A stretch of DNA of 64,000 nucleotides. Origin: Nitrososphaera sp. (GTDB taxonomy: Archaea > Thermoproteota > Nitrososphaeria > Nitrososphaerales > Nitrososphaeraceae). The notes beneath the pieces are model-generated. The model was not told the origin of the DNA, did no database searches, and saw nothing but the letters and a program-made list of their open reading frames with translations. The translations under genes were made by a program, and so were the position numbers. The stretch is from NCBI RefSeq assembly GCF_013388945.1, contig NZ_JACAEH010000010.1, forward strand, positions 1-64,000. Reading direction: 5' to 3'. Within the stretch, counting starts at the first letter, position 1; the number at the start of each line of letters is the position of its first letter. This document shows, piece by piece, positions 53,020 through 55,440 of this stretch.

Positions 53020-53370
53020 GTGGACTATACAAACGAATTTTGCGCTCAGGTTGCCAAGGTTAATCCAAACATCGTGATAACAGCCTGGCTCCGCAAGAAC
53101 AAGGCAGTAGCATGGTACGTGGCTCCCGGCGTCCCTGTACCTAAAGAGGAACGGAACGAGATAATGGGGCTCCAGACAGAGATAGTCAGGTCAATCTTAA
53201 AGACAAACGAGGAGTATTTTGGAAAAGCGCGCTACATCATGATGAGCATGGAAAACGCAGACGTGTTCCACTTTGCAGGCAAAGAACCTGATTATGGATT
53301 GTCGGTGGTCGTCAGGCGCCCGTACGAGCATGACGCGCTGGTCAAGGGCGTGCTTGCAAAGATTTCGTGA
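53020..53370 (+). CDS. DUF6659-like protein
   Basis: A 116-residue protein with leaderless GTG start. NIVITAWLRKNKAVAWYVAP, MGLQTEIVRSILKTNEEYFG, KARYIMMSMENADVFHFAGK and YGLSVVVRRPYEHD follow the same order as the 7398 protein, so they are paralogs of one thaumarchaeal family. Function unknown; a roadblock-like fold is suspected. Confidence 0.62.
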   Translation: MDYTNEFCAQVAKVNPNIVITAWLRKNKAVAWYVAPGVPVPKEERNEIMGLQTEIVRSILKTNEEYFGKARYIMMSMENADVFHFAGKEPDYGLSVVVRRPYEHDALVKGVLAKIS

Positions 53371-53375
53371 AAAGG

Positions 53376-53489
53376 TGCGGGGGGTGGGATTTGAACCCAC
53401 GGACCCCTGAGGGACGGGATGACCCATTGTGAGATCTTAAGTCCCGCGTCTCCAAGATTTCCTATTTGGCCGGGCTCTACAACCCCCGC
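53376..53489 (-). tRNA. tRNA-Leu(UAA) with two introns
   Basis: Acceptor GCGGGGG (53489-53483) pairs with CCCCCGC (53383-53377), discriminator A at 53376. Removing 14 nt (53450-53463) and 15 nt (53421-53435) leaves 85 nt with the D stem GTA/TAC, anticodon stem CGGGA/TCCCG, loop CTTAAGA (anticodon UAA) and a long variable arm. Both introns fit a bulge-helix-loop: CCAA/TTGG flanked by 3-nt bulges ATA and AGA for the first, CTTA/TGGG flanked by AGA and TCA for the second. The second is at the usual 37/38 site; the first lies inside the D arm. CCA is not encoded in full. Confidence 0.9.
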
Positions 53490-53577
53490 GCACATTGTGC
53501 AGACGCGGATTTTGGTAATTAAACCTTGACGGGGTTCGATACCTTAATCAAACCCTCGTGGAGAAACTTTCGTTTAA

Positions 53578-55299: not shown

Positions 55300-55440
55300 G
55301 GAGGGGTAGCGAAGCCCGGTCAAACGCGCAGGACTCAAGATCATGGCGCGCACGGCGTCATTTATTCCCGCGACATCACGAATGCGGGATGGGTGATCCC
55401 GTCCCTCAGGGGTTCGTGGGTTCAAATCCCACCCCCTCCA
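55300..55440 (+). tRNA. tRNA-Leu(CAA) with a 56-nt intron
   Basis: Acceptor GGAGGGG (55300-55306) pairs with CCCCTCC (55433-55439), discriminator A at 55440. D stem GCG/CGC, anticodon loop CTCAAG|A (anticodon CAA), T arm GTGGG/CCCAC. The intron is 55340-55395 at site 37/38: helix CTCA/TGGG flanked by bulges AGA and TGA gives the splicing motif, and the intron holds two hairpins, ATGGCG with CGTCAT-type pairing and TCCCGC/GCGGGA. The anticodon stem has an A28 x C42 mismatch (55330 and 55400). Mature length 85 nt. Confidence 0.9.

Follow-up and report, generated by a model that had tools for sequence, protein, structure and literature searches.

A segment of 114 bp in the analysed window (the whole stretch of 64,000 nucleotides of DNA from Nitrososphaera sp., an ammonia-oxidising archaeon) has the sequence of a leucine tRNA gene interrupted at two sites. 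The question raised by this locus is whether it specifies a working tRNA-Leu(UAA) from whose transcript both interruptions are spliced, and, if so, where exactly the exons are joined. The features are listed below, with the basis of the assignment in brackets where one applies.

53376-53489, minus strand: tRNA-Leu(UAA) gene, unspliced, 114 bp, CCA not encoded (sequence)
53464-53489, minus strand: exon 1, tRNA positions 1-23
53450-53463, minus strand: D-arm intron, non-canonical, site 23/24, 14 nt, AGGAAATCTTGGAG (sequence; site fixed by D-stem covariation in 96 genes)
53466-53469, minus strand: exon strand of the D-intron central helix, CCAA, at D-loop positions 20-21 (sequence)
53452-53455, minus strand: intron strand of the D-intron central helix, TTGG (homologous introns)
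53436-53449, minus strand: exon 2, tRNA positions 24-37
53437-53439, minus strand: anticodon UAA (sequence)
53421-53435, minus strand: canonical intron, site 37/38, 15 nt, ATCTCACAATGGGTC (sequence)
53438-53441 and 53423-53426, minus strand: central helix of the canonical intron, CTTA and TGGG
53376-53420, minus strand: exon 3, tRNA positions 38-73, including the long variable arm
53516-53523, minus strand: putative TATA-like box, TTTAATTA, approximately 27-34 nt upstream of the mature 5' end (suggested by the sequence)
53370-53373, minus strand: short T run 3' of the gene, possible terminator (suggested by the sequence)

Read in the 5' to 3' direction, with the introns in brackets, the gene is GCGGGGG TT GTA GAGCCCGGCCAA AT [AGGAAATCTTGGAG] AC G CGGGA CTTAAG [ATCTCACAATGGGTC] A TCCCG TCCCTCAGGGGTCC GTGGG TTCAAAT CCCAC CCCCCGC A. 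The first-pass annotation had placed introns of 14 and 15 nt here, one of them in the D arm; its coordinates were exact, and the strand (minus) is added by us. Its further claim that excision gives a Leu tRNA of 85 nt was also confirmed from the sequence: removal of both introns leaves 85 nt without CCA, a type II Leu tRNA, and the predicted mature 85-mer contains ...CCAAAUACGCGGG... and ...CUUAAGAUCCCG.... In standard numbering, set by the Leu D loop, the D-arm junction is T23/A24 and the second junction is the canonical 37/38. The TATA-like sequence is well placed for this gene and lies within the 88-bp gap (53490-53577) to a divergent tRNA-Thr(GGU). The tRNA-Leu(UAA) of cyanobacteria and plastids is known for a group I intron, a type with a catalytic core of about 100 nt and some ten helical elements. 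Such an intron was ruled out here, where the introns measure only 14 and 15 nt.

The expectation that simple gene finders might miss such a tRNA was borne out. No tRNA was reported at 53376-53489 when the window was scanned with ARAGORN, and with the Rfam tRNA model the segment stayed below the gathering threshold. When edited copies were submitted to ARAGORN, the precursor again gave nothing and removal of a single intron led to miscalls (Leu aag; Ser gga), while the sequence from which both introns had been removed was called tRNA-Leu(taa). A covariance model built on eight mature Leu tRNAs aligned to all 85 positions of the gene with 81.4 bits, placing insertions at both intron sites; this score is not independent, because the spliced sequence of the gene itself was among the eight. 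The default archaeal mode of tRNAscan-SE 2.0 should pick up the gene. The failure of ARAGORN and of the Rfam gathering search would also be understandable if the locus were a decayed pseudogene or remnant that had acquired insertions and is no longer used in translation. We consider this very improbable, since the exons are intact, no other Leu tRNA able to decode UUA was found in the genome assembly, which is 99.29% complete (31 contigs), and, as described below, dozens of genera share the layout, with compensated changes in the D stem. No second tRNA-Leu(UAA) was detected in this genome with the covariance model, which recovered the Leu GAG, UAG and CAA genes, and a pattern search of the genome returned, besides the gene itself, a single chance match. 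The second intact copy that, according to the first-pass annotation, would speak against the intron reading was not found by either method within the 31 contigs, although a further copy might lie in an assembly gap.

Other tRNA genes of this genome also have interruptions. The tRNA-Leu(CAA) gene at 55300-55440 of the window (plus strand), 1.8 kb away, has an intron of about 56 nt at the canonical site; it was missed by the default ARAGORN scan and found by Rfam. A tRNA-Trp gene (L039, G000:C27:35362-35495) has a 37/38 intron and, in the T loop, an insertion of about 35 nt with a GC-rich hairpin. Apparent introns, several at non-canonical sites, were seen in genes for Asn, Ser(UGA), Gln(UUG), Ser(CGA) and Arg(CCG) tRNAs (L034, L038, L043, L044 and L253). 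Since ARAGORN misses or misnames these intron-bearing genes, its tRNA list for the genome is incomplete. Contigs C7 (L251) and C8 (L252) of the genome start with an identical stretch of 119 bases (1-119 in both loci) and then diverge. The shared segment corresponds to the 3' portion of a gene resembling tRNA-Leu(CAG) with apparently two introns (in the anticodon stem at about 30/31, and at 37/38), and it may be an attachment-site duplication of an integrated element or a duplicated tRNA.

The distribution of the two-intron layout was followed by pattern searches. An exact pattern covering the stretch from the D loop to the anticodon had matches in 28 of the 61 nearest genomes, all belonging to the window's own family. 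With a looser pattern, applied to 400 genomes of the order Nitrososphaerales, 131 genomes of 35 genera were matched. Inspection of the printed matches showed a D-arm insert ending in TTGGNN in about 120 of these 131 genomes, and seven, from families f12 and f14, were intronless at the D-arm site. Among the named matches are records of Nitrososphaera, Nitrosocosmicus, Nitrosotalea, Nitrosotenuis, Nitrosothermus and Nitrosopolaris, and the genera with the D-arm intron include Nitrosocosmicus, Nitrosotalea, Nitrosotenuis and Nitrosothermus; a few of the pattern matches (e.g. G061, G107:C19, G152:C93 and G000:C18:37362) are due to chance. The largest genus of family f9 escaped the first order-wide pattern because its D arm differs. 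Its apparent lack of the D-arm intron was an artefact of that pattern, which required GAG at positions 13-15. T-arm-anchored and looser class-wide searches showed that the D-arm intron is present in this genus, with the canonical intron also present in most members. The canonical 37/38 intron of the relatives is mostly 13-18 nt long. The two-intron layout recurs across the order, with scattered absences of the D-arm intron, and because it is so widespread among the relatives, the feature is an ordinary, clade-typical one of a known kind. The first-pass annotation had regarded short paired introns and a D-arm site as unusual. This did not hold: the D-arm intron recurs order-wide, and short, D-arm and multi-intron cases have been published (PMC4090602, PMC4307357, PMC3293823).

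The relatives also made it possible to locate the D-arm junction. Ninety-eight distinct tRNA-Leu(UAA) genes were parsed from the fetched loci and 96 of them were used in a junction scan; one intronless gene was left out, as was L075, because its insert sits elsewhere. The junction was shifted from -2 to +4 with the mature length held constant. With the junction at 23/24 the 3-bp D stem was fully paired in all 96 genes, so that the site given by the first-pass annotation as between about 23 and 24 could be made exact. A shift of +1 preserved full pairing in 37 genes, and every other shift in only 2-4. Four versions of the stem occur across the intron, GTA/TAC (50 genes), GCC/GGC (37), ATC/GAT (7) and GCT/AGC (2), which means that both sides of the stem have changed together. 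When the 5' strands were shuffled among the genes, the mean number of pairings was 41.7 and the maximum 57 of 96, values that ignore relatedness, although the stem types follow clades. The exon strand CCAA is found in nearly all of the 98 distinct genes and the intron strand TTGG or GTGG in nearly all of the 96 homologous introns. The interior of the intron is variable, conservation being limited to its last bases (TTGGA plus one more). The length ranges from 14 to 27 nt, the 14 nt of the present gene being the shortest of the set.

These data bear on two other readings of the D-arm segment. The 14 nt might stay in the mature tRNA and enlarge its D arm, with splicing confined to the 37/38 intron. 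The length of D arms can vary, but a segment of 14-27 nt would have to be accommodated, the contiguous 5' trinucleotide of the unexcised form pairs at 3/3 positions in only 3 of 97 genes, and the intronless Leu(UAA) genes of related families have exactly the D arm predicted for the spliced product; retention is, in our judgement, scarcely credible. Alternatively, the segment could be an intron whose junction is displaced by one nucleotide, as the pairing at +1 in 37 of 96 genes would allow. To this we give the least credence of all, since zero shift alone works in 96 of 96 genes and, at both borders, puts the cut behind the second residue of a 3-nt bulge, in agreement with the experimental rule that EndA cuts between the second and third bulge residues (PMC4307357). 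The junction supported by covariation falls exactly where this rule puts it. Because of the conservation and of the compensatory D-stem changes across the intron, the sequence comparison strongly supports a genuine, functional tRNA-Leu(UAA) gene with two BHB-type introns.

In both introns the exon-intron borders lie in 3-nt bulges on either side of a central helix of 4 bp, and the cuts would fall after the second bulge nucleotide, as in a BHB. The helices are those described in the first-pass annotation, CCAA/TTGG with bulges ATA and AGA, and CTTA/TGGG with bulges AGA and TCA, the latter containing two G-U pairs. The chance of finding the D-arm central helix in a random 14-mer is 0.4%. Neither intron has the strict hBHBh' form: the D-arm intron is without a clear outer helix and its h' is 2 bp long, and the canonical intron has the anticodon stem as h and is without h'. 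The class is accepted to include the relaxed forms hBH and HBh' (PMC4090602, PMC6379350), and the two motifs would be relaxed BHBs, HBh'-like in the D arm and hBH-like in the anticodon arm. Among the relatives the inner helix h' has 5-7 bp in genes with the ATC stem and mostly 4-6 bp in the clades with the GCC stem; in the window's own family many genes have a weak one or none. In energy folding the D-arm BHB alone came to at least +2.0 kcal/mol, and the minimum free energy structure of the precursor was a different fold. This test does not discriminate, because RNAfold also failed to fold the spliced tRNA into its cloverleaf.

The enzymes required for BHB introns, EndA and an RNA ligase, are encoded in the genome, which has two PF01974 (EndA) genes and one RtcB ligase; two EndA genes are also present in most of the 61 nearest genomes. 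The EndA encoded on contig 4 (180 aa) aligns over its full length with the Aeropyrum pernix EndA chain 3p1z_B. It keeps the GIDHAP-motif His, where 3ajv_B has Ala, and its K-P-K stands opposite K44-P45-R46 in the Crenarchaea-specific loop of the A. pernix enzyme, a loop required for relaxed substrates. The EndA of contig 21 is without the catalytic His and is presumably the structural subunit. A catalytic subunit with the loop Lys and a structural subunit correspond in sequence to an EndA of the (alpha-beta)2 type, and their assembly is predicted.

We hold it to be highly probable that the locus is a functional tRNA-Leu(UAA) gene present in one copy, and that its transcript contains two protein-spliced archaeal tRNA introns, with cleavage by EndA and exon joining by RtcB. 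In the precursor each central helix would be formed with intron bases close to the 3' end of the intron: UUGG of the first intron opposite the D-loop CCAA, and UGGG of the second opposite the anticodon-loop CUUA. An (alpha-beta)2-type EndA would cleave every 3-nt bulge behind its second residue, and once joined by RtcB the exons would again form the anticodon loop and a D stem paired as GUA/UAC. We infer that the gene is transcribed and that its transcript is cleaved and ligated in this way, and the order of intron removal is to be understood in the same sense. The results correct how an essential tRNA gene overlooked by common finders is annotated, and with 96 distinct genes and four compensated versions of the D stem a non-canonical splice site could be fixed by sequence comparison. 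The D-arm introns, with inner helices of 5-7 bp down to 0-2 bp, also form a natural series on which the amount of BHB structure needed by an (alpha-beta)2 EndA at moderate temperature could be gauged. A more speculative proposal, which we think rather unlikely, is that the 23/24 intron dates back to the ancestor of the Nitrososphaerales and that selection has maintained it despite drift in sequence and length, which would imply a role beyond its removal, and that the 14-nt copy of Nitrososphaera, whose inner helix is nearly absent, is near the minimum for the endonuclease. If this were true, the intron might, for example, time the order of D-arm modifications or shield the gene from integrases.

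A search of the open literature, with most subscription papers, supplements and GtRNAdb outside its scope, returned no paper on a 23/24 intron in tRNA-Leu(UAA) of Nitrososphaerales; the intron is probably present in existing databases already. For tRNA introns of archaea, published lengths are 11-129 nt and the medians mostly 12-25 nt (PMC4090602), and D-arm introns and multi-intron tRNAs of archaea are already described (PMC4307357, PMC3293823). The same isoacceptor with multiple introns occurs in Candidatus Caldiarchaeum subterraneum, a separate and more distant lineage (PMC3293823); the likeness described is one of isoacceptor and of the presence of more than one intron. In Sulfolobus tokodaii tRNA-Glu(UUC/CUC) and Aeropyrum pernix tRNA-Thr(UGU), D-arm BHB introns are known whose cleavage by crenarchaeal EndA was confirmed experimentally. 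These are other tRNAs of another lineage, and a second intron at 37/38 is not noted for them in the accessible text of PMC4307357. The A. pernix (alpha-beta)2 EndA (3p1z, 3ajv) resembles the present enzyme over the full length of the alpha subunit, including the His and those loop residues (K-P-K/R) that are associated with cleavage of relaxed BHBs, whereas the structural subunit found here is much more divergent. The closest counterparts by lineage are those covered by tRNAscan-SE 2.0, for which PMC8450103 describes a dedicated Thaumarchaeota BHB model and 107 non-canonical introns in Thaumarchaeota genomes: these introns belong to the same broad lineage and the same BHB class as the D-arm intron of the present tRNA-Leu(UAA).
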